Virus record (IMG/VR): IMGVR_UViG_3300005854_000008
Coordinates: 1-37,258 of that record
Origin: a virus
Length of the DNA: 37,258 bases
Direction: 5' to 3' (one strand)
Within the stretch, counting starts at the first letter, position 1, and each line of letters starts with the position of its first letter. Shown here piece after piece: positions 1-37,258 of this stretch. The notes below the pieces were generated by a model. That model was not told where the DNA came from and did not search any database. It worked only from the letters and a program-made list of their open reading frames with translations. The translations under genes and the position numbers were made by a program.

Positions 1-706
1 TGAGAATTTTTCAATTTTAGCAGATGCTTTTGTAAATGATGATCCGACAACTGGAATAATAAAAAATGCTGACACTGTAGATGGTTTTCATGCAAGTCTC
101 ACTCCAGCTCCAAATACGATAGTGCCTTTGGATGCAAACGGGGTTTTGGATCTAAGTGTAAGTTATGTAAAAAGTAGTGTTTATACTTTAAGAAGAGTTG
201 ATTTGACGAATGCGACAAGTGATTATGAATTGCAGGTTGGAGAGGAGGCGATAATATGGTTTACGAATGCTACGAGTGTGCCTCTGAAAATTGCGACACA
301 GAGCGGAACTTATTATGAATGTCATTTGATTTGTAGTAATGTAGGAGGAACTTCAGGAGGAGTAATTGGTCCTATCTATCTTAATCCAAATAATACGACT
401 TATAGCAATGCTTTTATATATGTTGATATTTATAGAAACACTTCTGGTTTTGGCTCGGAAAGAGGGACTCATTCAGCTTTTAGATGTGGCTTGGCATTTT
501 CAAATGTTACTATGTTTATAACAAATTTTACTCAATACAAAGGTATAAAAGGAATTTATAATGTATATGGAATAGCAGAAAGCCACCCAATTTCAGTCCT
601 TTTTTCTACAGACTGGCGAGATACGACAACACGTTGGACTTCATTAGGAACAATAACTTTTCCGCAATCAACATCGGGCTATATCTTAATCAGGAGGTTA
701 GCATAA
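1..706 (+). CDS. Tail fibre protein, copy 1 (5' end missing)
   Basis: This is the C-terminal part of a receptor-binding tail fibre; the frame is open from base 2 and the start lies outside the window. The first ~75 residues closely match residues ~24-98 of the complete copy at 35839-36684, including the motif NADTVDGFHAS followed by TPAPNTIVPL (here with Leu in place of His), which is common in phage tail fibres just before the variable distal part. The middle and C-terminal parts differ strongly between the copies, but both end in RRLA. The stop overlaps the start of the chaperone gene (TAATG), so the two are probably translationally coupled. Tail-fibre identity is from recalled family motifs; the receptor is unknown. 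Confidence 0.8.
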   Translation, partial: ENFSILADAFVNDDPTTGIIKNADTVDGFHASLTPAPNTIVPLDANGVLDLSVSYVKSSVYTLRRVDLTNATSDYELQVGEEAIIWFTNATSVPLKIATQSGTYYECHLICSNVGGTSGGVIGPIYLNPNNTTYSNAFIYVDIYRNTSGFGSERGTHSAFRCGLAFSNVTMFITNFTQYKGIKGIYNVYGIAESHPISVLFSTDWRDTTTRWTSLGTITFPQSTSGYILIRRLA

Positions 707-1137
707 TGAAGGTATGGGTATACATACATCCAGAACTTAATATTCTTTGTTGTGCTTTATTGAAAGAAAATGTGCCTGAAGGAGTGCAAGCGGTAGAACT
801 TGAAGTAGAAAGTCCTGATGATGTGGTTTATGATGGAACTCAGATAAGATTGAAGACAGAGACAGAGAAATTTGCAGAAGAAAAACAGAGAAAATTTTTA
901 GAACTGAAAAGTTATGTAGCATCTTTACTTGCTCCGTCTGATTATGTGATTACGAAAATAGCTGAAGCTCAACTGCAGAATAATATTGAAGAAGTTCAAA
1001 CGTTAAAACAGAAGTATGCACAGCAATTACAAAGAAGAGAAGCAATTAGAATTTGGAATGAACAAATGAAACAGGCGATAGAAAATGCGACAAGTTTGGA
1101 AGAGTTGAGAAAAATAGTGATTGAATTTAAAGATTAG
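706..1137 (+). CDS. Tail fibre assembly chaperone-like protein, copy 1
   Basis: A 143-residue protein, about 80% identical by eye to the copy at 36684-37115. The second half (LLAPTDYVITKIAEAQ-like segment, then KQKYA..LQRREAIR.WNEQMK) resembles small tail-fibre assembly proteins of the XkdW/DUF4376 kind, which sit directly after fibre genes and help fold or attach the fibre. I place the start at ATG 706, not at an upstream in-frame start at 634, because AGGAGG lies just before it and both copies agree. The N-terminus carries a Cys-Cys pair (ILCCALL). Function is inferred from position and motif. Confidence 0.65.
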   Translation: MKVWVYIHPELNILCCALLKENVPEGVQAVELEVESPDDVVYDGTQIRLKTETEKFAEEKQRKFLELKSYVASLLAPSDYVITKIAEAQLQNNIEEVQTLKQKYAQQLQRREAIRIWNEQMKQAIENATSLEELRKIVIEFKD

Positions 1138-1150
1138 GGGGTGTTGTTAA

Positions 1151-1306
1151 ATGCCTGAGAAGCTTGATCGTTGTGTGCGAAAAGTGATGCGTAAGGGATA
1201 TACCAAGCAGGAAGCATATGCGATATGAGCAAAGTCTACTGGCTGGGTCAGGGGACCTGGCGGTAGATGGATAAATAAAAAAGCAAAAAAGAGGAAGAAG
1301 AAATGA
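1151..1306 (+). CDS. 51-residue protein with in-frame UGA (candidate selenoprotein), copy 1
   Basis: Starting at ATG 1151 behind GGGGGTG, the frame reads 25 codons ending in AYAI, then TGA at 1226-1228. It continues open for 25 more codons (AKSTGWVRGPGGRW, then a Lys/Arg-rich tail) and stops at TGA 1304-1306, which overlaps the ATG of the next gene (ATGA). The second copy at 37129 has the same UGA. The three base differences between the copies lie before the UGA and are all synonymous; the shared bases after it are identical. From memory, small phage proteins with an AYAIC or NPYAVC motif carry Cys at this position, so UGA would read as Sec or, less likely, Cys or Trp. Cys8 could pair with residue 26. 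UGA serves as an ordinary stop elsewhere in the genome (for example 9861-9863), so recoding would be local. A short 25-residue product or a decaying gene cannot be ruled out. Function unknown. Confidence 0.6.
1235..1267 (+). promoter_or_regulatory. SECIS-like hairpin just after the in-frame UGA
   Basis: Six bases after the UGA the RNA can fold into a 33-nt hairpin. Outer stem: 1235-1239 with 1263-1267 (UCUAC/GUAGA), then U1240-G1262. G1241 is bulged. Inner stem: 1242-1249 with 1254-1261, eight pairs including two G-U. The apical loop is AGGG (1250-1253). Bacterial SECIS elements lie directly after the Sec UGA inside the coding region; as I recall, the loop begins roughly 16-37 nt downstream and has a G in its first two positions. 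This hairpin meets both. Folding was done by hand. Confidence 0.55.
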
Positions 1307-1578
1307 GTTCAGAAACAGTTGTTTATTTGTTAGTTGCTGGGTTAATTGGTATTTTGTTCAAAATAGTGTGGGACTGGTTGGTTGGGTTAAAAAAGAATAA
1401 CAATATGCGGGAGATTTGTCGACAGCGATTTGAAATGTTTGACGACGAAATTTGTAGATTATATGAGCGATTAGATAAAATTGAAGAAAAATTGGAAGTG
1501 GCGTTGGAAAATCTAAACAGAAAGATAGATGAAAAATTTGAGTTGTTAATCAAAATGTTAACTCAAAATCGGTCGTAA
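1303..1578 (+). CDS. Small membrane protein with coiled coil (holin or lysis accessory candidate)
   Basis: A 91-residue protein with one N-terminal membrane segment (residues ~5-28, VVYLLVAGLIGILFKIVW) and a charged helical C-terminal part with heptad-like spacing (residues ~40-85). It opens the lysis-type cluster and begins with ATGA overlapping the end of the UGA gene. Single-pass proteins with a coiled coil occur among phage holin accessory proteins, but the sequence alone does not say whether this is a holin. Confidence 0.6.
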   Translation: MSSETVVYLLVAGLIGILFKIVWDWLVGLKKNNNMREICRQRFEMFDDEICRLYERLDKIEEKLEVALENLNRKIDEKFELLIKMLTQNRS

Positions 1579-1590
1579 GGAGGTGATAAG

Positions 1591-1860
1591 ATGAACGAGT
1601 ATTGGAAACAGTTTGGATGGCACTGGATTATTATTTTTCTTGGGTTAATGTTTTTTGTTACGGGAGTTATTGGATTATTTTATGAACCATTTCAGTTTGT
1701 GTTTAAAAAGATTTTTCTTTTGTCTTTGTGGTATGTGTTTGCCTATTTGACAAGACTTATTAGGATAGGTCACATAGATTGGGAGAGCGATGAGTGGGCT
1801 AAGAGGGTGTATTATATTGCTATTTTGCTTGGTAGTGCTTGGATTGTGGCAAACGGCTAA
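1591..1860 (+). CDS. Putative holin
   Basis: An 89-residue, very hydrophobic protein with likely membrane segments at residues ~12-32, ~38-56 and ~70-86, preceded by AAGGAGGTG. Its last 71 bases overlap, in another frame, the signal peptide of the lysozyme-like gene at 1790. Holin followed by endolysin is a usual phage order; identity rests on size, hydrophobicity and position. Confidence 0.55.
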   Translation: MNEYWKQFGWHWIIIFLGLMFFVTGVIGLFYEPFQFVFKKIFLLSLWYVFAYLTRLIRIGHIDWESDEWAKRVYYIAILLGSAWIVANG

Positions 1861-2413
1861 AGCTTTTGAGTGTAGAAAGTTATTACCGCAAGTAAAACAA
1901 GCTTCAGAATTTATATTGGGGTTGAATTATCCTTATTGGTATAATTTGGGACAGATTGAAGCGGAAACAAATTGTCGATGGTTGACTTCTTTAGATGGAT
2001 GGGGTTCAGTTGGGTATGCTCAGTTGACTGAAAGATTTTTGCCGTGGCTGAGTAAGAAATTTCCGAATTGGAAGGTCAAGGGGCATATGGATCATTTTTT
2101 GGCTCAAGCTTATTTGATTAAGCAGTTGTTAAATCAAGCGAGTTGCAAGAAGCTTTGGAATGTGTATCAGTGTTACAATCGGTCTTGTTGGAAGGTCAAT
2201 AGGGAAGCAAAGCAAGCTGATTGTGTATGGGAGAAGGCTTTTGAGTTGTGCAATGAGCGGTATGTTGAGAACATTTGTGTTTGGAAACGGGATGGGAAGT
2301 GTTTGCAGTGGCGAACAAATTGTGACATAAATTACAATTACGGTTACAAAGTTTGGAAAAATGGGATAAAATATCGAAGCGGAATGATTGAAACGACTTA
2401 TCGTTATTGGTAG
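1790..2413 (+). CDS. Secreted lytic transglycosylase-like endolysin
   Basis: A 207-residue protein with an N-terminal signal sequence (residues ~1-26, hydrophobic core IILLFCLVVLGLW). The mature part resembles a soluble lytic transglycosylase core: QIEAETNC gives a likely catalytic Glu (E57 or E59), followed about 15 residues later by WGSVGYAQLT, like the usual G-x-x-G-x-x-Q segment. It would cleave peptidoglycan after export. It is unusually Cys-rich (KCxx-type clusters and many single Cys), suggesting disulfides formed outside the cytoplasm. The start at 1790 follows GGGAG and overlaps the holin gene. The family match is by eye and distant. Confidence 0.6.
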   Translation: MSGLRGCIILLFCLVVLGLWQTAKAFECRKLLPQVKQASEFILGLNYPYWYNLGQIEAETNCRWLTSLDGWGSVGYAQLTERFLPWLSKKFPNWKVKGHMDHFLAQAYLIKQLLNQASCKKLWNVYQCYNRSCWKVNREAKQADCVWEKAFELCNERYVENICVWKRDGKCLQWRTNCDINYNYGYKVWKNGIKYRSGMIETTYRYW

Positions 2414-2417
2414 GGCA

Positions 2418-2738
2418 ATGAGAAATTACATGTGGGTTTTGATTGTTTTGGGGTTGTTGGTTTTGGTGTTTGTTATGGGGGTTGTTTTGTGGTTTGAGAA
2501 GAAGGATAACGCTATTTTGAAGCAAGCTATAGAACAGCAAGAGCAAATAATTAAGAAAAAAGAAGAGCAGATACAGTTGTTGCAGGAGCAGTTAGAAGCG
2601 TTAAGGAAAGAGCAAGTTTTGAAGGAAAAGCGGATTGTAATTTTGAAGCAAAAACGTGAGCAAGTGCAGAAGCCTCAAACGGTTAAAGATTTAGTAAAAG
2701 CTTTTAAGGAACTTGGTTATGATGCAAGGGTTAAGTAA
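2418..2738 (+). CDS. Spanin-like membrane coiled-coil protein
   Basis: A 106-residue protein with an N-terminal membrane anchor (residues ~4-24) and a long Gln/Glu/Lys-rich coiled coil (residues ~30-85). This layout fits an inner-membrane spanin (Rz-like) or another lysis coiled-coil protein. I chose ATG 2418; an in-frame TTG at 2388 is possible but would overlap the lysozyme gene. The next gene overlaps its 3' end in another frame, as Rz1 genes often do, but that product shows no lipoprotein signal. Confidence 0.5.
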   Translation: MRNYMWVLIVLGLLVLVFVMGVVLWFEKKDNAILKQAIEQQEQIIKKKEEQIQLLQEQLEALRKEQVLKEKRIVILKQKREQVQKPQTVKDLVKAFKELGYDARVK

Positions 2739-4804: not shown

Positions 4805-5238
4805 TATACTACTCCTTCGTAGAAAAATTTGACGCTTTCTTTGTAATCGTTGATAAGCAAATCAGTAAATGGTGTTAATTCGTCTTTGATAACTTTGAAC
4901 TTGCGTAAGAGATTGATAATGTAATTGTATTCAAAAAAGTTTAGACGACCAAAGCCGAGGTAATAAGTTTTGTTTCCATCTCTGAGTTTGAAAGATAGAC
5001 AGAATGGTTTGTAAGGGTCTTGTAAGATTTCAATACGATGTTTGTTATCTCGAATGAATTCGGCTATTGCTAAGAGGTAGTCATCGTTGTCTGAGCGTAG
5101 AATGATGATGTTGCCTTCTTTAAGACCGATTATCATATTTTTGTATTTGATGATAGCACGAGGTTGTTTGATGTTGTGAAAGTCGGATGCTTCTACCAAC
5201 TCTGGGATTGACTTTGCTTGTATAATTTGCCTATCCAT
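4804..5238 (-). CDS. Hypothetical partner of the ATP-grasp-like protein
   Basis: A 144-residue soluble protein starting at ATG 5238 (MDRQIIQAKS). A longer frame from TTG 5265 would include the promoter -10 box and is unlikely. The start is only about two bases past the expected transcription start, so the message is nearly leaderless. It is translationally coupled to the ATP-grasp-like gene and may supply the substrate or target peptide for it; that is inference only. No known domain recognised. Confidence 0.6.
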   Translation of the reverse strand: MDRQIIQAKSIPELVEASDFHNIKQPRAIIKYKNMIIGLKEGNIIILRSDNDDYLLAIAEFIRDNKHRIEILQDPYKPFCLSFKLRDGNKTYYLGFGRLNFFEYNYIINLLRKFKVIKDELTPFTDLLINDYKESVKFFYEGVV

Positions 5239-15400: not shown

Positions 15401-16724
15401 TATGGGGACGACACTTGGTATATTAGCTTATATACAAAGTTGGTTCCCCTATGTAGTTGCTCCTTTCCAAATTGCAGTTCATTCACTTGCTAAAAGTTTG
15501 ACTTCATCTAAACATGCTATGAATTTCTTTAAACATTTGTTAATTGGTTCAACTATTTTACCTGCGACAGTTACTCAGTTTAGTGGTGTGACAGACACAA
15601 TTAAACAAGCTTATGAAGGTTTGTCAGTAATTTATCACACAATGGCTTCGATTATTACAGGAGATCCTGAACCAATTCAGTCATATCTTGAGGAACAAGA
15701 ACCTGTTTTAGCTTCGATATGGAAATCATTGTTTAGTAATTTAACCAATATACCACGAGATGAATTGACAGGTAGACTATTTCACGATTTAGGTTTGTTA
15801 TTAGCATTACACGGTGATGAAGTTGCATGGCAATATGTGAGAGCAGGACTTGACTTTTTGGCAAGACATTTAGATTTGGCAAATAAAAACTTATTCTCAC
15901 CTGGATCGGTAAGCACATCATTTGAAGTCACAGTGCCTATAATTAACACAGCTTTGAAGATAATTAACAACTTAACTGTTTATGAAAAAGAGCAACCGCA
16001 ATTAGCAGGTAAGACTTTGTTAGAAACGATAATGCAAACTATGCCAATTGCTAAAAACATTCGAGCAGGAATTTTACATGAACTAACTCAATACGGCAGA
16101 ATAAACGAAGATAGCGTGCTGAGATATTTCGATGATGAATATTTAACAACTGCTACAGGTCTCAGCTACTTCTTAGGAGTAATGCTTAAACATACAGTAA
16201 CAACAGCAAAGATATTTGATACGTTATTTTTGGGAGGACTTGGTGAGGCTGTAGCTCGAGTATTTACTGGTGAAGAAAGAAAAATGCTTTTCCTTCCTAA
16301 AGTAACCGATGCAAAAAGTTACAGACTCAAAATTTTAGGCAACGAAGAATATGTCTTACGGTCACTTAAGCAAATTGAGGACCCACATACGAAAAAAAAT
16401 GTCTTGTTAAGATTTGCTAACATAATGGACAATTATTTTGACGAAAAGAAAATCAAAAAGACAGATAGAACTCCTGAAGAAGAAATTAACATGTTCAAAA
16501 GCTATTTGACTTTCTTAACTTACGATCCGAGCATTCTAGACGACACAGAACTTGACTACATGATCCAAGTTGCAAATAAATCAGCCTACTACTTCAAACT
16601 TAAGTATGGTCTCGATGAGAAAGACTTGCATCATTTCTTAGCCAAAGCTTTAGACGAACTCAAGATTCGAAGAAAACTTAGAGGACAGTTGCTTCCCCCT
16701 GAAACGGAATCTCAGGGTTCTTAA
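12411..16724 (+). CDS. Giant (1437-residue) internal virion / ejection protein candidate
   Basis: The largest gene in the window. Hydrophobic helices lie at residues ~170-225 (LSLVLGLGGLATKGALWLG, then VASFGIVAGDIAFAG) and near the middle of the C-terminal half (MGTTLGILAYIQSWFPYVVA). Much of the rest is charged alpha helix. Very large helical proteins after head genes in short-tailed phages are usually internal core proteins ejected into the host envelope (compare T7 gp16). No transglycosylase or protease motif could be seen. Its 3' end overlaps the convergent polymerase gene by 47 bases. Confidence 0.55.
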   Translation: MGLTDILHDLRVKFFGYNENDVYNFLAYPKKSELNKLLRDKKSREQFFSTVERIAQKKGLDSVKTLEAVSRYILQKAKDNGLFTSEIITAPRLQDYEMIIGIDELGRYAFGEKDLGMGFVRVLEALDVGKRMKKKDRDKFVTNVRNTLFIAYQVDKTIERIEKALDTASDLSLVLGLGGLATKGALWLGRRVLKNVTKDILTRSMLVRVANNVASFGIVAGDIAFAGSELGKATLNTVAKGLPLTYSLDHLILSGISLAGFLGAKTKRVQEAIQKIEGVPHTTVDDVRRKIIENQLPIPGYDLNLTTDEASKMFVSQIRKYLESKAGKKLSLENLESMNVLMARLLGSFAEQWKVNTLLVSDAFVNPHKYTHKIHEVYETVKNFIITNKEDFLALIDKLPEERFAFVASKPELFEFFYMNTSKVFLDRIRFLLKEIKENEIIDKRKLYIRLKETDIEVRAEEAYMWDFENLINYYVWNTIKNGKLSVGVEFVLKESDNVEKVLREYYLPTIYIPTSDYRKILVVSIKEGDEEKEILVDVPAVLVGALGEKFKGDLTQIHLFLRRYVAEVKGLDLKQVKNILVIYDPVSQLFPSTVIRKLGLNKLRILDDWLNIFPDEELKEIGLRKDKATKLLEFGKNISEAFNQFSIRQQRIQAENMLKEIRAILKELLGYDPKDKVRTETLIKEALKEAQTSDNPALQDAVYVLSEQVKRLKPLVKDLKAKFTDPKKASLAEKLIQNFQRVETIIEKLSKNPIEEVRKKVIDLIYQEKDPRFLRKYGSGFVDVKMLYELDPELAFDYLARAYTRPWTSDKRWLLSFVRRTEERLFTDPFLKDTDFVKTLELIRDYQGRETARSKWLQVIGTLSKIYTWMLPRVAIGAGIQLFNTISQRYPSFRFFQAPFETIKDIITTPELRRFLYSQIKEELHEDNYLSFWVRAIEPFIQTIFYNELLKNPQFRKEVLQDFGHIVKGEFTPVDAKLLAEHLTNLINSPAAISPFMGTTLGILAYIQSWFPYVVAPFQIAVHSLAKSLTSSKHAMNFFKHLLIGSTILPATVTQFSGVTDTIKQAYEGLSVIYHTMASIITGDPEPIQSYLEEQEPVLASIWKSLFSNLTNIPRDELTGRLFHDLGLLLALHGDEVAWQYVRAGLDFLARHLDLANKNLFSPGSVSTSFEVTVPIINTALKIINNLTVYEKEQPQLAGKTLLETIMQTMPIAKNIRAGILHELTQYGRINEDSVLRYFDDEYLTTATGLSYFLGVMLKHTVTTAKIFDTLFLGGLGEAVARVFTGEERKMLFLPKVTDAKSYRLKILGNEEYVLRSLKQIEDPHTKKNVLLRFANIMDNYFDEKKIKKTDRTPEEEINMFKSYLTFLTYDPSILDDTELDYMIQVANKSAYYFKLKYGLDEKDLHHFLAKALDELKIRRKLRGQLLPPETESQGS

Positions 16725-18276
16725 ATAAATAGGTCCACATTTCAGCTCCAGCCTCATCTAAGGTTTTGATATATTCTTGAGCTTCTTCTTCGCTTTCACA
16801 TTCGATCTGTATTTCATCATGAATAAGGTTAACAATTTTGGCATTCGGATATTTTTTAGTAAACAAAACTACAGTTCCCTTGAGTAATTCAGCTCCTGTT
16901 CCTTGGATAGGGAAATTTAGGGCTATGTTTAAATGTTCAGTATAACGACTACGACGAAGAACAGTGCTAATAACAATAGAGCCAGCTTTAAGTGCATTCA
17001 TAGTCGATTGAATATGCTCAGCAACTCGTCGATGATAAGACATCCATTTTGCTCGCAAAAACTTCGTCTCTTCATATGTCAACAGTATATTTGCTTCATA
17101 AAGAAGTTGTTGCAAAGTTTGAACTGATGCTCCGTAAATTAAAGCAAAATTAAACTGTTTTGCAATTTGTCGCTCTTCTTTAGTAATCTGATCAATAGGC
17201 TTGTCAAAAAGAATCGATGCAGTCTTGCTATGTAGATCCTCATTGTTTCGATAAGCTACGATAAAGGTTGGAATGTAATAGATTTGCCCAGCAAGTCTAA
17301 GCTCAATCTGAGAGAAATCATACTTCAAAAATGGGCTCTTGTAAAAAAGATGCCGTAGATGCCGTGGTATGTTTAAAAGATTTGAATTCGAGCAAGAAAG
17401 CCGTCCCGTAATGGCTCCGCAAACATCGTAGTGTCCATACAACCGACCCGATGCTCCCTTTTCCATCCATTCCTCAAGGTAAGAAATTTCATCTTGTTGC
17501 TTCTTTAACGCTAAGATGTCATGAATGCACTGTTTCAAACGTTCATCTTTAGTTGTAAATAAATGATATAATAGAGTCTGCTTTTGAGCATCAGGTAGAT
17601 TAAGCTTGTTCTTGACCTGTATAGGAGAAAAAGGATTGAACTGATATGTTTTCTGAAAAGCAATCAAATTTTGATTGAAAACAGGTTTCTTTTCCCGTAA
17701 CAACTTAGCCACTTCGTCAATGTTAATTGGAACCCCTCGCTTCTGAATTTGCAACAGCCGAATTAAAAACGCTTTGTCTAAAACGTAAACGGGCTTAAAC
17801 TTTTGATGGTTTGCAATTGTATGCTTATACAACAGCTCAGTCGCATTCAAATCTTCAACCAAATAGTCTCTCAACTGATTATTTGATAACTTTAGTCCTT
17901 TTTCAAGACTTTTCCTTATCTGGTTCTTGTTCGTTTTGTATTCATACAGATTGAAGAATTTGCAGAGATTTTCAAGACCGAATGAACCTTTCTCAGGTTG
18001 TGTAATGTTATATTCGACTTGGTATGCTTTCATGAACAAATAAGTGTCGTTGAAACAATCTCTATTTGGCGGAATGAAATCAATAACCGAAAAATCATAA
18101 AACAAATTGTGCCCTACAATTACATAACCATTGTTGATTAAATCAGTTAAAAATTGTTTTATTTTTTCAACATCATCAAAGTAAAAATACTTACCGTCAA
18201 TTTTCACGCCAGCAAGCAATAGCTTACCATATAGACCCTGAGTTTCAGTATCAAAAATTGCTATCTTTCGCATCAT
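16678..18276 (-). CDS. polA: Family-A DNA polymerase with 3'-5' exonuclease
   Basis: A 532-residue replicative polymerase lacking the 5'-3' nuclease domain. Exonuclease: IAIFDTETQG (Asp and Glu of motif I), VGHNLFYDFSVID (motif II), DYLVEDLNAT (motif III). Polymerase: TGRLSCSNSNLLNIPR, motif A YDFSQIELRLAG, motif B RQIAKQFNFALIYG, motif C LIHDEIQIEC. The O helix carries Phe at the position that selects against dideoxynucleotides (Tyr in T7). ATG 18276 follows AAGGAGAACA; the longer frame from 18363 overlaps the upstream gene and lacks such a site. It is the last gene of the leftward replication unit. Confidence 0.95.
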   Translation of the reverse strand: MMRKIAIFDTETQGLYGKLLLAGVKIDGKYFYFDDVEKIKQFLTDLINNGYVIVGHNLFYDFSVIDFIPPNRDCFNDTYLFMKAYQVEYNITQPEKGSFGLENLCKFFNLYEYKTNKNQIRKSLEKGLKLSNNQLRDYLVEDLNATELLYKHTIANHQKFKPVYVLDKAFLIRLLQIQKRGVPINIDEVAKLLREKKPVFNQNLIAFQKTYQFNPFSPIQVKNKLNLPDAQKQTLLYHLFTTKDERLKQCIHDILALKKQQDEISYLEEWMEKGASGRLYGHYDVCGAITGRLSCSNSNLLNIPRHLRHLFYKSPFLKYDFSQIELRLAGQIYYIPTFIVAYRNNEDLHSKTASILFDKPIDQITKEERQIAKQFNFALIYGASVQTLQQLLYEANILLTYEETKFLRAKWMSYHRRVAEHIQSTMNALKAGSIVISTVLRRSRYTEHLNIALNFPIQGTGAELLKGTVVLFTKKYPNAKIVNLIHDEIQIECESEEEAQEYIKTLDEAGAEMWTYLFKNPEIPFQGEATVL

Positions 18277-18442
18277 TGTTCTCCTTAGGTTGAAATTTTT
18301 CGCAAGCAGGAAGTAAAGGATGTATCTCTTGTTTTTCATCTTCAAAAGTGCATCGCCAATCAAATCGTTTAATTTTCTTTGAAAACTTACAGTCTATACA
18401 TTTTTTCTTTGTCATCAACTTAACTAACTCCTGTAAAGTCAT
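18251..18442 (-). CDS. Small cysteine-containing protein between primase and polymerase
   Basis: A 63-residue protein with CIDC near the N-terminus and two more Cys (RWRCTF-like and PACEKF segments), a plausible four-Cys metal site. It has a good GGAGGGATG ribosome site and overlaps the start of the polymerase gene by 26 bases, suggesting coupling. It could be a replication accessory protein; no family recognised. Confidence 0.55.
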   Translation of the reverse strand: MTLQELVKLMTKKKCIDCKFSKKIKRFDWRCTFEDEKQEIHPLLPACEKFQPKENNDAKDSNF

Positions 18443-18454
18443 ACCACATCCCTC

Positions 18455-21337
18455 CTATTGCCATTTATCAGCTATTTCGTCTAATTCTTTCTCAGTTGAG
18501 TAACGAAATTCTTGCTTAATCAAATCAATAAAGTCATACCCAGCAAACCGTAAATACTGCAAAAACTTCTGAAATTCTTTCGGAAAATGAACTATAAAAT
18601 TGTTTATCGTGTCCTTATGATATGGATCTTGCAAAATGAATTTCATTGGATTTCCCTTAACAATAACAAGCCAAAACGGATTTAAATTCGGCTGTGAAAT
18701 CCAATCTTGCTTGTAAATCTTTGTCAAAAAATTGTAAAATAAGTGCAACTCGCCATTGTAAATCGCCGTATGTTCTATCGCAATTATACGATCAATATAC
18801 TTGTCCCCTTGAGCTTTGATTGTAGAAAGCAAATCATTAAACGTAATAAAATCAATTTCCCTATCAAAAATGGATGGCTCAAGAATTGTATACTCCTTAA
18901 ATTTCGGAGCAACTAAAATATGCAACAACTGCTTAAAGTAAAAATCAGCTTTTTCTTTGTCATACAACTTGTGAAGCATAAAGTCAAAAATGAACAAAGT
19001 CTTAAGTAGCGGGTCATAATCATAAACAGCATAATCAACATGTTTATACGTTCCCTGCTGAATCAACTTATAAAGTTCATCTTCATAAGGTATAAAAATT
19101 TCCTGATACAACTCAAAACCCCAACCCCAGTTGTCTACAAGCTGAATGAGATATTCTCTGTAGAAATTTTCAATCTTCTCAACATACTGTGGATCACGAT
19201 ATCCAATGTTAAACGTAATCAAACGACGCCACATACCTTCAATTGTCATAAACGGAATGTAATACTTAGTCTCCATTGTAAATAAACAAGGCATAATAAT
19301 CTCTGTCGCTCGAGAAAATTGAATATTAGCTTTGCTAATTCTTCTGTTTGCCAAATCGTGAACTAATTGTCTCATATATTTGATGTCTCGTTCATCGTTA
19401 ACGATAAAATCATCGCCCGTGAATGGAGACCGAAGGTAAGGTAGCCGTCTATTCATAAAAGCACTTGTAATATCATGTGCATGTAAAGTAAAGAAATGTT
19501 CCATCTTACGGAAGAAAACATTGTATAACTTCAAAACAGAAGTTTTACCACATCCAGTAGAACCAATCAAAATAAAAATCGGATTCATGCTAAAACAATC
19601 ATATCGTCTCAAAAAGAAAATCGATACCAAAGCAAGCCAACAACCAAGCTTAAAAACAAAATATTCATCAGACAATTTGTATAAAATCTGATTAATCACT
19701 TGTTTAAACACTTGATAACTACCGCTCGTCTCAAGATAGAAGTTCGAAAAAGGATGATCTTCAAGCGATGCTGTAATAAAATTTCTCAATCTGATAATTG
19801 ATAAAGACTCGGAATAATGCTTAAAACCTAACATGTTCGGCTCAATGATTGTCGGTATCTCGCGATAGAAAAACGTAAGCAAATCTTTATACCGCTTCTT
19901 GTCCGAAACAGAAAGCATCTCAGCCTCAGTAAAACCTTTGTCATAATTCATTTTCACAATAAATTCATCAATCTTGTTCGTCCCCGCTACAATAATTTTA
20001 GCTTTACTCACATTTTCACTCTCAATTTTGTTAATCGCAAACCAAAGTGGATAGAAAAATCTACAAACATACTTCAACTCTAATCCATCCGCTTCGCCAT
20101 CTTTTTTAATCGGAACTCGACTGAAATACATCTTGTCAACAACCTCAAACCCATCAGGAAGCGTAAAAGTCGGCATAATAGGAAGTATAACTTTGTTAAA
20201 TTTAGGACAAGTCGGAGGGCAACCAAACTCACGATTAAATCTACGACACGACCAGAAAATTAACGGAAAGTTTCTTTTAACAAACCAATCAAAAAACTTT
20301 TTCGTCTTTTCTCTTGCTTTATGAGGGGGTTCTTTCTTGTATAAACTTGCATTATCTAACAACTCCTGTAAAACCTTGCCTCGCTCTTCTTCGTTTTTGC
20401 TAAAGTATTGATACAACAAATAATAAAACCAAATCGCAATTTTCCATTCAACATAACTATGCGTATCCCACGTGCTTAAAATCTGATTCATCACAGGACA
20501 AAAAGTCTCCGTATACTTCTTGACCGATTTGACATCATATAAAGCATGATACAAAGTCGTTACATAATCATTGTCAAAATCAATCTGATTGTTCAGAATT
20601 TTGTTCAATTCCTCATCTGACGATTTGTCATCAAGTGAAATCACTTTCGAATACAAGTCCCAAAAACTGTCATACCAAATACCCTCGTAAATAACAATAC
20701 CGTCTGCCCGTGTGTAAAATCCTTGAAGCGGTATGAGCTTGTCAAGATGCACATGGGGCAACTCTTTTTCAATAAGTTGTTTAACCTGATTAAAAAACGT
20801 AGAAAGAAACATGTTAAAAGTCGAAAATAGAACATTGTCCTCCTTAATCAAATACTTTTTGCTAAGCCACAGAAAATGATAACCCTTCGTCGTCTTAACT
20901 ACGTAAGTTACCGTATAATTGTGTGCATTCAAAAGTTCAATAATCTGTTTACAATCTTGCTCCGTAATGTCATCAATATCTACAACCATCAAGAAAAATG
21001 TATCTTCAAGCGTCGACCAAGAAGGATAATCTGTATAAAATCCCGTAGAAACCCTGAGCTTGATGTTATAGGGTTTGATTTTTCGCTTTGTAAAGAAAGC
21101 AAAAAGATAGTTCAAATAGTGATTATACAAGAATGGTTTCGGTGCTTGGAAAATTTTCTTCTCACCCGATGCTGTCTCAACAAACAAATAAAGATTTGCC
21201 AAATCCGAATGATACCGCTGATACTGATGGAATATCTTAGCAAATAAAATGTTCTCATGCACAAAAATAGTGTCCTGAAAGTATTCCACTGTGCGAGTAA
21301 GTATAGCATCAATAACTTCCTGAATCTGTTCATTCAT
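18455..21337 (-). CDS. Primase-helicase (AEP primase plus SF3/D5-like ATPase)
   Basis: A 960-residue replication protein. The N-terminal part resembles archaeo-eukaryotic primases: MVVDIDDIT (residues ~118-126, metal-binding Asp pair), KTTKGYHFLW (~148-157, His motif) and HLDKLIPLQGFYTRADG (~200, Asp and Arg). A Cys-rich segment near residue 370 (CRRFNREFGCPPTC) may bind zinc. The C-terminal part has Walker A GSTGCGKTS (~592) and a following acidic segment FTGDDFIVND that may serve as Walker B. It would prime and unwind DNA for the phage polymerase. The ATG at 21337 overlaps the stop of the upstream helicase gene. Confidence 0.85.
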   Translation of the reverse strand: MNEQIQEVIDAILTRTVEYFQDTIFVHENILFAKIFHQYQRYHSDLANLYLFVETASGEKKIFQAPKPFLYNHYLNYLFAFFTKRKIKPYNIKLRVSTGFYTDYPSWSTLEDTFFLMVVDIDDITEQDCKQIIELLNAHNYTVTYVVKTTKGYHFLWLSKKYLIKEDNVLFSTFNMFLSTFFNQVKQLIEKELPHVHLDKLIPLQGFYTRADGIVIYEGIWYDSFWDLYSKVISLDDKSSDEELNKILNNQIDFDNDYVTTLYHALYDVKSVKKYTETFCPVMNQILSTWDTHSYVEWKIAIWFYYLLYQYFSKNEEERGKVLQELLDNASLYKKEPPHKAREKTKKFFDWFVKRNFPLIFWSCRRFNREFGCPPTCPKFNKVILPIMPTFTLPDGFEVVDKMYFSRVPIKKDGEADGLELKYVCRFFYPLWFAINKIESENVSKAKIIVAGTNKIDEFIVKMNYDKGFTEAEMLSVSDKKRYKDLLTFFYREIPTIIEPNMLGFKHYSESLSIIRLRNFITASLEDHPFSNFYLETSGSYQVFKQVINQILYKLSDEYFVFKLGCWLALVSIFFLRRYDCFSMNPIFILIGSTGCGKTSVLKLYNVFFRKMEHFFTLHAHDITSAFMNRRLPYLRSPFTGDDFIVNDERDIKYMRQLVHDLANRRISKANIQFSRATEIIMPCLFTMETKYYIPFMTIEGMWRRLITFNIGYRDPQYVEKIENFYREYLIQLVDNWGWGFELYQEIFIPYEDELYKLIQQGTYKHVDYAVYDYDPLLKTLFIFDFMLHKLYDKEKADFYFKQLLHILVAPKFKEYTILEPSIFDREIDFITFNDLLSTIKAQGDKYIDRIIAIEHTAIYNGELHLFYNFLTKIYKQDWISQPNLNPFWLVIVKGNPMKFILQDPYHKDTINNFIVHFPKEFQKFLQYLRFAGYDFIDLIKQEFRYSTEKELDEIADKWQ

Positions 21338-22487
21338 CACTCAAACTTCCTTTCCGTTTCAATTCTTCCAAAACATCTCCTTTTCGCTTAAGTATCTTCC
21401 AAACTTTCGCATCAATACCTTTCTTGTCCATCAACCGTAGTAAGTAAACTTTATCTTCCTGTCCAAATCGCCAAACTCGACTTAACGCTTGCTCATAAAC
21501 CCGCCACGCTAAAGGTAAACAAAGAAAAATTATATTCTTATACCCCGTCAAATTAATTCCCTCGGAAATACAATAGGTCGCTAAAATCGGTTTGTCAAAA
21601 TTTTTTATCGCATACTCAAGATCTTTCTTGTCTTGACCCGTCACAAAATAAACATTCTTTCTGCCCAACTTTTTTACAATCAAATTTAACGGCTCAATGA
21701 AATAACCGAACACAACTGTTTGCGGATTGTCCTGTATAAAATCAATCACATAATCAATCTTGTCCTTAAGCATCGCACTTTTCCGATACTCAAACATGAA
21801 AGCCTGTAAAACATTCGTTACATCAACATCTTTTTTGTCAATCAAATACTTACCCGAAGTAAACCACTTCTCATCCTCTATCAAACTCGGAAGCTCTACA
21901 ATGTCAGCCCTCTTAACAAAATCAACATAGGGCAAAACATAATGCTCAATAAACTTCTGTTTGACTCCAGGTAAAAAATCAATAATGTAATAAAACATTC
22001 CATCAATCCGAAAAAACGCATTCTTATACTGAGTGAACGACAACTGATTGAAAGGATGATCAGGTCGTAAAATTCTAAGCTGTGAATAGTAATCCTCAGG
22101 CTTTTCAAACGGAGTTCCACTTAACATTACTTTATAAGTCTTTGTAAAAATCTTCATAACAAGTTTCGTAATTTGAGCACGAATACTTTTCAACTTGTGA
22201 GCCTCATCAAAAATAACTAAGTTCCAAAACGCTCGCCTTAAAATTTTAGGATGATGTAAACGAAAACTATCATAACTTACAACTTCAAAATTATTTAACT
22301 TTATATTCCACTTCTCAATTTCCTGATACCATACTTGTTTGACTGAAGCAGGACACATAATAAGCACATTTCGAAAATTCTCCGCTATTTTCAATGCTGT
22401 TAGTGTCTTGCCCGTTCCCGTCTCCCACGCTAAATAAGAATAACCATTGAATTTTTCGACCGCTCTTTGCTGATGAGGAAGTAACAT
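21330..22487 (-). CDS. SNF2-type superfamily 2 helicase
   Basis: A 385-residue helicase/translocase: LLPHQQRAVEKF (Q-like motif), Walker A WETGTGKT, LIMCPASVKQVWYQEIEKW (motif Ia), Walker B VIFDEAHKLKS, LSGTPFEKPED (motif III), and in the second domain TYCISEGINLTGY and YEQALSRVWRFGQED (motifs V and VI with the Arg finger). Compact SNF2-like helicases occur in phage replication/recombination modules. ATG 22487 is preferred over TTG 22499, being two bases after the upstream stop with AAGGA before it. Confidence 0.9.
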   Translation of the reverse strand: MLLPHQQRAVEKFNGYSYLAWETGTGKTLTALKIAENFRNVLIMCPASVKQVWYQEIEKWNIKLNNFEVVSYDSFRLHHPKILRRAFWNLVIFDEAHKLKSIRAQITKLVMKIFTKTYKVMLSGTPFEKPEDYYSQLRILRPDHPFNQLSFTQYKNAFFRIDGMFYYIIDFLPGVKQKFIEHYVLPYVDFVKRADIVELPSLIEDEKWFTSGKYLIDKKDVDVTNVLQAFMFEYRKSAMLKDKIDYVIDFIQDNPQTVVFGYFIEPLNLIVKKLGRKNVYFVTGQDKKDLEYAIKNFDKPILATYCISEGINLTGYKNIIFLCLPLAWRVYEQALSRVWRFGQEDKVYLLRLMDKKGIDAKVWKILKRKGDVLEELKRKGSLSDE

Positions 22488-22489
22488 CT

Positions 22490-23383
22490 CTAAAGCCAAA
22501 TCCTTTTCACAGGTCTATATTCGACATACTGCTTCTTAATTTCCTCTGGAATATTGTAAAATGCCCGTTGATATTCTGTTATTTTAATTATTTTATCACC
22601 AATTCGATAAGTTCCCGCATCCCAATTCTTGAGCTCCTCCTTAATTTCCTTCTCAAGCTGTTCATATTGCTTAAGCTTTGCTTTAATTGCATAGTAAATC
22701 TCAAGTTTTTTCATAAATTCAGGACTTACCTCTACAGTTCGAATGGTTGTTTTCGTCTCTTCAGGATAGCATCTATCAAAAAACGGGCACGCTCTGCACA
22801 AGTCATGTTGCTCAATCGGCTTCGGCAAAGTTCCTTTTTGAATATGCTCTTTTACGTGAATCGCTCTCTCCTTGATCTCCTCTATGACCGCTTCGTCTCT
22901 TTCTACATCAAAAAAGTAATCTTCACCAGTCCTTCGATCAATCACATAGAAAATCCCATAGTCTCTTTGCAAAAGTAACATGTAAGTTTGCATTTGGTAA
23001 TAATACTTTTTAGTTAATTTGTTGCTTTCATAAATACCAAAGTCATCTAAAATGTTTTCGCTTGCCGTGCTCTTAATTTCAATGAAATCTCCACTTTCAA
23101 GAATAACATCAACAACTCCTTTTACATCAAGTTCCTCACTTATAACAGGCAGTTGATAAGCCTTCACAGGAACAATCTTCAGCAGTCTTTTTAAAGCAAC
23201 CTCTTCAAACTCGGAACCAACATCAAAGTATTTCTTAGCTTGCTTGATCGGTAACGGAACTTGCCTCATCAAAACTAGTCGTCTTTCGCAAGGATGCCAC
23301 ACTTCTGTAGCAGGGGTATGCCGAGGACAATAAACTTCTTTTTCACCAACTTCAAACAGTTGCCTCAAATCTTTTGCTTTCAT
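22490..23383 (-). CDS. Cas4/RecB-like iron-sulfur exonuclease
   Basis: A 297-residue nuclease. VKGVVDVILESGDFIEIKST contains the D and E-x-K of the PD-(D/E)XK core, and YYYQMQTYMLLL supplies the downstream Q motif. Cysteines before the core (VYCPRHT, WHPCERR) and CRACPFFDRCYPE after it could bind a 4Fe-4S cluster, as in Cas4 and AddB-type nucleases. It would process DNA ends for the neighbouring annealing protein. Start 23383 follows AAGGAGGTTG. Confidence 0.85.
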   Translation of the reverse strand: MKAKDLRQLFEVGEKEVYCPRHTPATEVWHPCERRLVLMRQVPLPIKQAKKYFDVGSEFEEVALKRLLKIVPVKAYQLPVISEELDVKGVVDVILESGDFIEIKSTASENILDDFGIYESNKLTKKYYYQMQTYMLLLQRDYGIFYVIDRRTGEDYFFDVERDEAVIEEIKERAIHVKEHIQKGTLPKPIEQHDLCRACPFFDRCYPEETKTTIRTVEVSPEFMKKLEIYYAIKAKLKQYEQLEKEIKEELKNWDAGTYRIGDKIIKITEYQRAFYNIPEEIKKQYVEYRPVKRIWL

Positions 23384-23858
23384 GTTCAACCTCCTTCAAA
23401 ATTTTCGAAGTCTGAAGTAATTGCAAAAGTAAAGGCTCGACCCTACGATCAACATAAACCCCAAATGGAGTAAAATAAACCCGAACATTCCTATAAGTTA
23501 ACCTACTTACTAATGAACCAAATAGACGCTTCTTAAAAATACTCGGTAAATGTCCGACTCTATCATTTAGCCAATCCTTGATGAACAAATATTTTTGCTT
23601 TAGAAAAGCATACTTCCAAATGTTGTATCGCCAGAACAACTCCTCATTGCTCCAACTTTTAACTGGATCTTCCAAATACTTCCGCCATTCATCCCAGCCT
23701 AAATAGACGATTCCCTTAACCCTCAACATTTCAGCTTTTGATGTCTTTAATGCTACAAAGCACCCACAACCGTAGTGTTGATAACCAAGTAGATACCCTT
23801 GCTTTAGTGCTTTAAGCCGTGCTCTTTTCCAATCTCTACAACCTATTCTCGTATACAT
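23352..23858 (-). CDS. Hypothetical protein in the recombination cluster
   Basis: A 168-residue basic protein, rich in Trp, Tyr and Lys/Arg. The N-terminal part includes CGCF near residue 32. The C-terminal part has TYRNVRVYFTPFGVYVDRRVE. Basic charge and location between a nuclease and an annealing-protein candidate suggest nucleic-acid binding, but I recognise no family. It overlaps the nuclease gene by 32 bases. Confidence 0.6.
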   Translation of the reverse strand: MYTRIGCRDWKRARLKALKQGYLLGYQHYGCGCFVALKTSKAEMLRVKGIVYLGWDEWRKYLEDPVKSWSNEELFWRYNIWKYAFLKQKYLFIKDWLNDRVGHLPSIFKKRLFGSLVSRLTYRNVRVYFTPFGVYVDRRVEPLLLQLLQTSKILKEVEHESKRFEATV

Positions 23859-35838: not shown

Positions 35839-36684
35839 ATGCCGTATACAAAAAATCCGATAGTTTATCCAAGTGGTTTTGTAAGTGTTGATGTGGCGAA
35901 AGTTAATGAGAATTTTTCAATTTTAGCAGATGCTTTTGTAAATGATGACCCGACAACTGGAATAGTAAAAAATGCTGACACTGTAGATGGTTTTCATGCA
36001 AGTCACACTCCAGCTCCGAATACGATAGTGCCTCTTAATGCAAATGGAATTTTAGATTTGAGTGCGAGTTATGTGAGGAGTAATGTTTATACCTTTAGAA
36101 GAGTTGATTTAACAGAGGCGACAAGTGATTATGAGTTGCAAGTTGGAGAGGAGGCGTATTATATTTGGAATACGGTTTCAAGATTAACTCTTCCATTGAG
36201 GATACGTGTAAGTGGGATTTTATATCAATTAATTGTTGTTGCTCCAAGAAGTTCAGGGTTTATAAATTTAGAGCTGTTTCCTAATAATACTTCTTATACG
36301 AATGCTTTTGAAAGATATAGTATGTATCCAAGTTCTATTGGATATTTAACAGGAGCATGGCTTGGTTATTCTTATGATGATGGATATTATTTAGTAACAT
36401 CTTCTGGATCTTCTAATGTTTTTGTTTGGGAAAGAGCTGTTCAACATAGAATTTTATATCCTTCTATTATTGGTGGAGGGATGCTAATTTCGTGTTTACA
36501 AACAATGAGACAAAATAAAGGAGAGATGCACTATGCGATGATACATGCTTCGTCAAATTATCCTAGGTATATACAAGGAACTAATAGGTGGAATGATATT
36601 GCGGTGGATTGGATATCGTTAGGAAGTTTAGTAGCGTCTGCACAGAATGGAACTATTACAGTTTTTGTTAGGAGGTTAGCATAA
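35839..36684 (+). CDS. Tail fibre protein, copy 2 (complete)
   Basis: A 281-residue fibre. The N-terminal ~100 residues are nearly identical to copy 1 and include NADTVDGFHAS then TPAPNTIVPL, probably the shaft that attaches to the virion. The rest is diverged, rich in Ser, Tyr and Gly, and would bind the host receptor. It ends in RRLA and overlaps the chaperone start (TAATG). GAGGGAG precedes the start. Confidence 0.8.
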   Translation: MPYTKNPIVYPSGFVSVDVAKVNENFSILADAFVNDDPTTGIVKNADTVDGFHASHTPAPNTIVPLNANGILDLSASYVRSNVYTFRRVDLTEATSDYELQVGEEAYYIWNTVSRLTLPLRIRVSGILYQLIVVAPRSSGFINLELFPNNTSYTNAFERYSMYPSSIGYLTGAWLGYSYDDGYYLVTSSGSSNVFVWERAVQHRILYPSIIGGGMLISCLQTMRQNKGEMHYAMIHASSNYPRYIQGTNRWNDIAVDWISLGSLVASAQNGTITVFVRRLA

Positions 36685-37115
36685 TGAAGGTATGGGCATA
36701 TATACATCCAGAACTTAATATTCTTTGTTGTGCTTTATTGAAAGAAAGTGTGCCAGAAGGAGTTCAAGCGGTAGAACTTGAGGTAGAAAATCCTGATGAT
36801 GTTGTGCTTGATAATGGGCGAATTAGGTTAAAGACAGAAGCGGAGAAGGTTGTAGAAGAAAAGCAGAAAAAACTTGCAGAACTGAAGAATTATGTAGCGA
36901 ATTTACTTGCCCCGACTGATTATGTGATTACGAAGATAACTGAAGCTCAAATACAGAATGATATTGAGGAAGTCAAAATGTTAAGACAGAAATATGCAGT
37001 GCAATTGCAAAGGAGGGAAGCAATAAGACAATGGAATGAGCAGATGAAGCAAACGATAAAAAATGCAACAAGTTTGGAAGAATTGAGAAAGATAGTGATT
37101 GAATTTAGAGATTAG
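36684..37115 (+). CDS. Tail fibre assembly chaperone-like protein, copy 2
   Basis: A 143-residue paralogue of the protein at 706-1137, with substitutions spread along its length, mostly conservative. Shares LLAPTDYVITKI and REAIRQWNEQMKQ. AGGAGG lies just before the start. Probably folds or attaches the fibre encoded just upstream, which would explain why the pair was duplicated together. Confidence 0.65.
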   Translation: MKVWAYIHPELNILCCALLKESVPEGVQAVELEVENPDDVVLDNGRIRLKTEAEKVVEEKQKKLAELKNYVANLLAPTDYVITKITEAQIQNDIEEVKMLRQKYAVQLQRREAIRQWNEQMKQTIKNATSLEELRKIVIEFRD

Positions 37116-37128
37116 GGGGTGTTGTTAA

Positions 37129-37258
37129 ATGCCTGAGAAGCTTGATCGTTGTGTGCGAAAAGTGATGCGAAAAGGCTATACCAAGCAGGAAGCATATGCG
37201 ATATGAGCAAAGTCTACTGGCTGGGTCAGGGGACCTGGCGGTAGATGGATAAATAAAA
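37129..37258 (+). CDS. 51-residue protein with in-frame UGA, copy 2 (cut by window end)
   Basis: The same frame as at 1151: 25 codons, TGA at 37204-37206, then 17 complete codons before the window stops. It differs from copy 1 at three bases, all before the UGA and all synonymous; the last 82 bases are identical. The downstream hairpin is at 37213-37245. Having the UGA and frame in both copies argues against a sequencing error or a fresh mutation. Confidence 0.6.

Follow-up and report, generated by a model that had tools for sequence, protein, structure and literature searches.

A small phage gene with an in-frame UGA, most likely encoding a selenoprotein, at the head of a lysis cassette

Selenoproteins are known from cells and from a few animal viruses (PMC8310308; see also PMC9402790). 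In bacterial selenoproteins of the formate dehydrogenase type, a UGA that corresponds to Cys in homologues is followed by an in-frame hairpin, the bSECIS. According to PMC13188914, this hairpin has a loop of 3–9 nt with G in the first two positions, a stem of 4–16 bp, a distance of 16–37 nt from the UGA and an MFE of −7.5 or lower. Selenocysteine (Sec) occurs in oxidoreductase active sites, and Cys forms of cellular selenoprotein families with remnant SECIS structures have been reported (PMC1794560). Among phages, the Basilisk-like Bacillus phages have been linked to selenocysteine by a tRNA-SeC gene, with no selenoprotein described in the accessible part of PMC6145125. No phage selenoprotein was found in the open-access literature searched, a body that lacks bioRxiv preprints altogether and the majority of subscription papers.

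The small gene presented here resembles the genes of bacterial selenoproteins in its UGA with Cys homologues, its in-frame downstream hairpin, and the loop size, G position and spacing of that hairpin, as well as in the SECIS remnant kept by one Cys form. It differs from them in being carried by phages, in belonging to a family that was not found described, and in a decoding machinery that would be that of the host. It shares with the Basilisk-like phages the association with selenocysteine, but it is a UGA gene that is found here and not a tRNA. Sec decoding works by a known mechanism; what appears to be new is that a phage makes use of it, and does so in an undescribed family.

The DNA analyzed, hereafter the window, is a whole IMG/VR virus record (IMGVR_UViG_3300005854_000008; 37,258 nt), whose terminase and portal genes indicate a tailed phage. 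It can be compared to Pyrovirus (TOSV, TGBSV/GBS41), viruses predicted to infect Aquificae (PMC7689252). The likeness includes the hot-spring source of the relatives, a GC content of about 35%, an antiholin-holin-lysin cassette, and a PolA-type polymerase gene that has genes for an SNF2-like helicase and a Cas4/RecB-like nuclease next to it. Some of the relatives come from Yellowstone springs, their IMG samples appearing in PMC7380581 and PMC9723716. The window PolA differs in being a stand-alone protein of 561 aa, whereas that of Pyrovirus belongs to a polyprotein of about 1600 aa. It is 34% identical to that of the related record G004, where the match lies within a 1565-aa frame; G004 carries a Cys form of the small gene. 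The stand-alone PolA, a 961-aa protein, the SNF2-like helicase and the Cas4/RecB-like nuclease occupy positions 16678–23389 on the minus strand and look like the replication block of Pyrovirus, except that the polymerase is separated from the polyprotein. Elsewhere, the AT-rich intergenic segment 29872–30756, with a 17-nt-phased array of direct repeats and a 56-nt inverted repeat (88%), is a possible replication origin.

The same gene order, fibre-like, chaperone-like, UGA gene, is found at both ends of the window on the plus strand, as had been noted in an earlier, sequence-only reading. At the start (copy A), the fibre-like gene (2..706) is cut at its 5′ end by the contig start and is followed by the chaperone-like gene (706..1137) and the small UGA gene (1151..1306). 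The latter is complete, with 51 codons if the UGA is read through, and ends with its own TGA (1304–1306), which overlaps the next ATG. At the end (copy B), a complete fibre-like gene (35839..36684) and a chaperone-like gene (36684..37115) precede a small gene (37129..37258) of which the contig end leaves 43 codons. The in-frame UGA is codon 26, at 1226..1228 in copy A and 37204..37206 in copy B. A 23-nt probe across it had two matches in the window and none in 100 shuffles. The product is basic, with about 46–51 residues.

Some phage host-range modules combine a tail fibre with a chaperone. The pair of genes upstream of the small gene is similar in that the start of the fibre is conserved and its end divergent, the chaperone is adjacent and the borders recombine. 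It differs in that the names were given from position and look, without a family match, and in that the small gene lies outside the swapped block. Neither the fibre-like nor the chaperone-like gene has a confident Pfam or PHROG match; compared specifically with chaperone families, the latter gave no PHROG at E 0.1 and no Pfam above the cut-off, and its protein has no match in INPHARED.

A codon comparison of A with B, including the count of synonymous and nonsynonymous changes that had been proposed, bore out the ranking of the UGA gene as the most conserved part of the cassette. The small genes are 97.7% identical in nucleotides and 100% in amino acids over 43 codons, with 3 synonymous and 0 nonsynonymous differences (pS 0.11). 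The chaperone-like genes are 84% identical in nucleotides and 81% in amino acids (pS 0.40); the fibre-like genes are 89% identical in nucleotides at their start and 47% over the remainder.

The view that the cassette is duplicated inside one genome was not confirmed, as A and B are the two ends of one contig and the relatives are single-copy. The small gene is present in 20 of the 42 related records searched, once in each; the chaperone is present in 27 of the 42, once in all but a 129-kb record. The first nucleotides of the contig (1..42) are exactly those of 35907–35948, and its last 82 nt (37177..37258) exactly those of 1199–1280. A and B are almost 100% identical at either border, and their identity drops to about 40% in the fibre. 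The matches of the contig ends and this fall from border to fibre point to A and B being probably two alleles of one locus. From the offsets of the matching ends, the window would close into a circle of about 35,906 nt if allele A is taken, or 35,978 nt with allele B. The phage genome would then map circularly, at about 35.9 kb, and both alleles of the locus would be present in the sample. The assembler would have begun in allele A, made one turn of the circle and ended in allele B where the alleles turn identical. Fibre and chaperone would form a swapped host-range module, with the small gene at its conserved downstream border.

Related records tend to break at the same place. Contig ends lie within 1.1 kb of the chaperone in 11 of 27 cases, against 4.2 expected (P 0.0007). 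In the sister record G014 (40,536 nt, PolA 83% identical to that of the window), the fibre is split, with its start at one contig end (1–398; L110 1–398) and its body at the other (39671–40536; L111 1272–2137). The two ends share an exact overlap of 106 nt inside the fibre gene, although this could be one of the internal repeats of the fibre, and joining them restores one open fibre frame. This is what is expected of one circular locus broken at that point. No strain contig bridging the junction was found in a scan of viral contigs, a set from which near-identical records may be missing. The TOSV genome is a circle of 37,256 bp, and related genomes failed to circularize, possibly owing to population heterogeneity (PMC7689252).

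A true tandem duplication, in which one genome holds two fibre-chaperone-UGA cassettes as a host-range pair and gene conversion keeps the UGA genes alike, would account for both copies being open and for the purely synonymous differences between the small genes, and adjacent cassettes on a circular genome would also land at two contig ends. It is nevertheless unlikely, since none of the 20 records with the gene has two of them, since only chance would place the two contig ends both within the repeated unit, and since G014 closes through one fibre gene. If A and B are alleles of a single locus, this is a warning that a viral metagenome contig whose ends differ can look as if it carried a duplicated cassette.

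The near identity of the two small genes had been ascribed to strong constraint or recent gene conversion. Strong constraint was rejected as the cause, as the small genes of relatives diverge at similar chaperone identity: where chaperones are 80–87% identical in nucleotides, the small genes are 70–94% identical, against 97.6% for A and B. Among 66 pairs, A and B have the highest small-gene identity while ranking third for the chaperone, which argues for recombination of alleles. As judged from these comparisons of sequence, the identity of A and B is best read as an effect of allele recombination and not of unusual constraint. The proposal thus stands in its second half, altered to recombining alleles of a single locus, and falls in its first.

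A link of the small gene to fibre function or virion assembly, which had also been suggested, is unsupported, as co-occurrence is patchy and divergence is not correlated with that of the fibre or chaperone. When the trio was looked for in relatives, 33 records, many of them fragments, had the chaperone or the small gene: 14 had both, 13 the chaperone only and 6 the small gene only. In 2 of the 14 records with both, no more than about 50 nt separates the small gene from the chaperone; in the others the distance is 220 nt to 2.2 kb. Small-gene similarity shows no correlation with that of the fibre (r −0.01) or the chaperone (r 0.15, Mantel p 0.15), and a weak one with that of antiholin, holin and lysin (r 0.28–0.34, p about 0.02). 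Relatives with a small gene unlinked to fibres, and conversion that explains its identity, had been named beforehand as observations that would speak against the link, and both were largely made.

Downstream of copy A lie an antiholin-like membrane gene (1303..1578), which has a start codon overlapping the small gene's stop and is named by analogy to the cassette in PMC7689252, a gene called holin-like by position (1591..1860), a lytic transglycosylase-like endolysin (1790..2413; phrog_669 endolysin, E 2e-4) and an Rz-like spanin (2418..2738; phrog_89, E 2.8e-7), all on the plus strand. The antiholin-like gene directly follows the small gene in all 14 loci compared, which are those of the close family and of the window, and is itself followed by the holin-like gene and then, wherever the contig extends that far, by the lysin. 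Of 13 close forms, 11 end the small gene with a TGA that overlaps the start of the following gene; in most relatives the overlap that couples the two genes reads ATGA or GTGA. The antiholin gene was not detected in six more distant forms (L006, L007, L008, L010, L012 and L013). Linkage to the fibre was rejected on this synteny together with the lacking correlation. By gene order, the small gene opens the lysis cassette and is no companion of the fibre.

Codon 26 is UGA in the window and in six related records (G001, G002, G010, G014, G015 and G020), and Cys (TGT or TGC) in the other 14 of 20. In 18 diverse phage sequences, position 8 is always Cys and position 26 always Cys or UGA. The two forms are found within one sample, 3300005860 (L003 with UGA, L024 with Cys). 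They are mixed on the tree of lysis genes, which requires at least 4 changes, a number as low as that in 143 of 500 shuffles. Downstream of the UGA, a pN/pS of 0.09–0.13 indicates purifying selection and continued coding.

A SECIS-like hairpin follows the UGA on the plus strand, at 1234..1268 in copy A (loop AGGG at 1250–1253, 21 nt after the UGA) and, with the same sequence, at 37212..37246 in copy B (loop 37228–37231; match to hairpin model R1 at 37204–37256, 79.8 bits). In copy A its MFE is −20.1 kcal/mol (z −4.56). All seven UGA forms have an 11-pair stem, a 4-nt AGGG loop with G in second position, a spacing of 21 nt and a core MFE of −10.1 or lower, values within the bSECIS rules given in PMC13188914. 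The hairpin sequence occurs in seven viral contigs, each time in the small UGA gene, and outside the small gene nothing scored above 18 bits with R1. No SECIS match was returned by Rfam. None of the 11 stem pairs is changed on both sides, so strict covariation is absent.

The hairpin goes largely with the UGA forms. When each was compared with 2000 synonymous shuffles, 0 to 13 shuffles folded as well in the UGA forms (0 for copy A), against 367 to 1728 in five close Cys forms; the z values were −2.8 to −4.8 and +1.1 to −0.9, respectively. This Cys set comprised six forms, the five and L005. In a pair-conservation test with 10 Cys forms, 77 of 77 stem pair cells were kept in the UGA forms as opposed to 52.7% of 110 in the Cys forms, where the stem is broken in nine of the 10, L005 being the exception. 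L012, L013, L069 and L071 were left out of the latter test. L069 and L071 are near-identical; loci L049, L054, L055, L061, L062 and L064–L083 belong to records for which other loci already stand in the counts. The pair score of the Cys rows exceeded that of most shuffles (20 of 500 as high), which may be due to the presence of L005 among the rows. L005 combines a TGT Cys codon with an intact SECIS-like hairpin (5076–5128, 75 bits with R1), and is likely to have undergone a recent Sec-to-Cys change.

From the exchange of UGA and Cys, the conserved hairpin and the purifying selection after the UGA, the small gene is most likely a phage-encoded selenoprotein gene. The joint reading, one locus of a circular genome with two alleles and a small gene that encodes a selenoprotein, is given a probability of roughly 0.8. 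The host ribosome would meet the UGA at codon 26, the downstream hairpin would bind host SelB carrying Sec-tRNA, and selenocysteine would be inserted in place of termination. Its expression would start the lysis operon and be coupled to that of the antiholin-like gene. Sec decoding, as well as the host, the redox role and any lysis effect considered below, is what we infer. If true, a conserved phage gene depends on selenium decoding by the host, and the closely related Sec and Cys phages that share springs form a natural experiment on viral selenocysteine use; UGA genes of phages are missed by standard annotation.

A stable hairpin after a stop codon can promote read-through, and such a hairpin sits after this stop. 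It could stall the ribosome so that a near-cognate tRNA (Trp, Cys or Arg) yields a fraction of long product without selenium, which would agree with no Sec machinery having been found in the phage records. This is quite unlikely, as the stop is UGA in all seven cases and the sense alternative Cys in all 14 records, as spacing, loop and stem lie within the bSECIS rules, and as loss of the hairpin accompanies Cys in nine of 10 forms. That UGA is a real stop, leaving a 25-residue peptide and a decaying remainder, is how annotation under code 11 would end the gene; it is very improbable given the low pN/pS after the UGA, the conserved stop further on, with its coupling to the gene behind it, and the intact frame common to seven divergent genomes. 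A phage code with UGA as sense, such as table 4, would fit one in-frame UGA in a conserved gene but is close to nil in probability and was rejected, because TGA terminates 8 of the 45 chosen window ORFs and usually the small gene itself, which indicates the standard code, and among the other conserved genes of the window none has a TGA interrupting its true frame.

Sec decoding requires SelA, SelB, SelD and tRNA-Sec in the cell. For the selenoprotein, decoding must fall to the host, as SelB was found in none of the seven UGA records (some of them fragments) and no tRNA gene in the window and 11 loci. The machinery is probably that of an Aquificota host. tRNA-Sec is reported to be present in Aquificaceae except Hydrogenobaculum and absent from Hydrogenothermaceae (PMC4227106), and GBS41 has been linked by CRISPR to Thermocrinis (PMC7689252). 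A point against Sec decoding is that G004, likely GBS41, has a host family with tRNA-Sec and yet carries a Cys form. A host search of GTDB contigs gave one weak match, in Bacillus sp. FJAT-26390 (27 residues, 48%; L084 6001–6081).

The protein is predicted to fold as a helical hairpin with helices 3–14 and 19–30 (pLDDT 91.6). Antiparallel pairing of the helices would let residues 8 and 26 face each other, and Cys8 and Sec26 probably form a thiol-selenol redox pair in this model, which is the simplest reading because Sec occurs in oxidoreductase active sites. It is a tentative and rather doubtful extension that this C8/U26 redox hairpin, toggling between Sec and Cys when the phages change between hosts that can and cannot decode Sec, tunes the timing of lysis to the redox or selenium state. 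The protein has no match in INPHARED, none in the PDB by sequence or, at E 0.001, by fold, and none in Pfam or PHROG, likewise for distant members beyond the L014 fusion. A Foldseek search of viral models returned one match, a 44-aa protein 72% identical (E 3e-6). In L014 (5001–5291), the start MPEKLDRCV...AYAIC forms the N-terminal part of a protein that looks like a head maturation protease of phages (phrog_12864), so that the domain also occurs in fused form.
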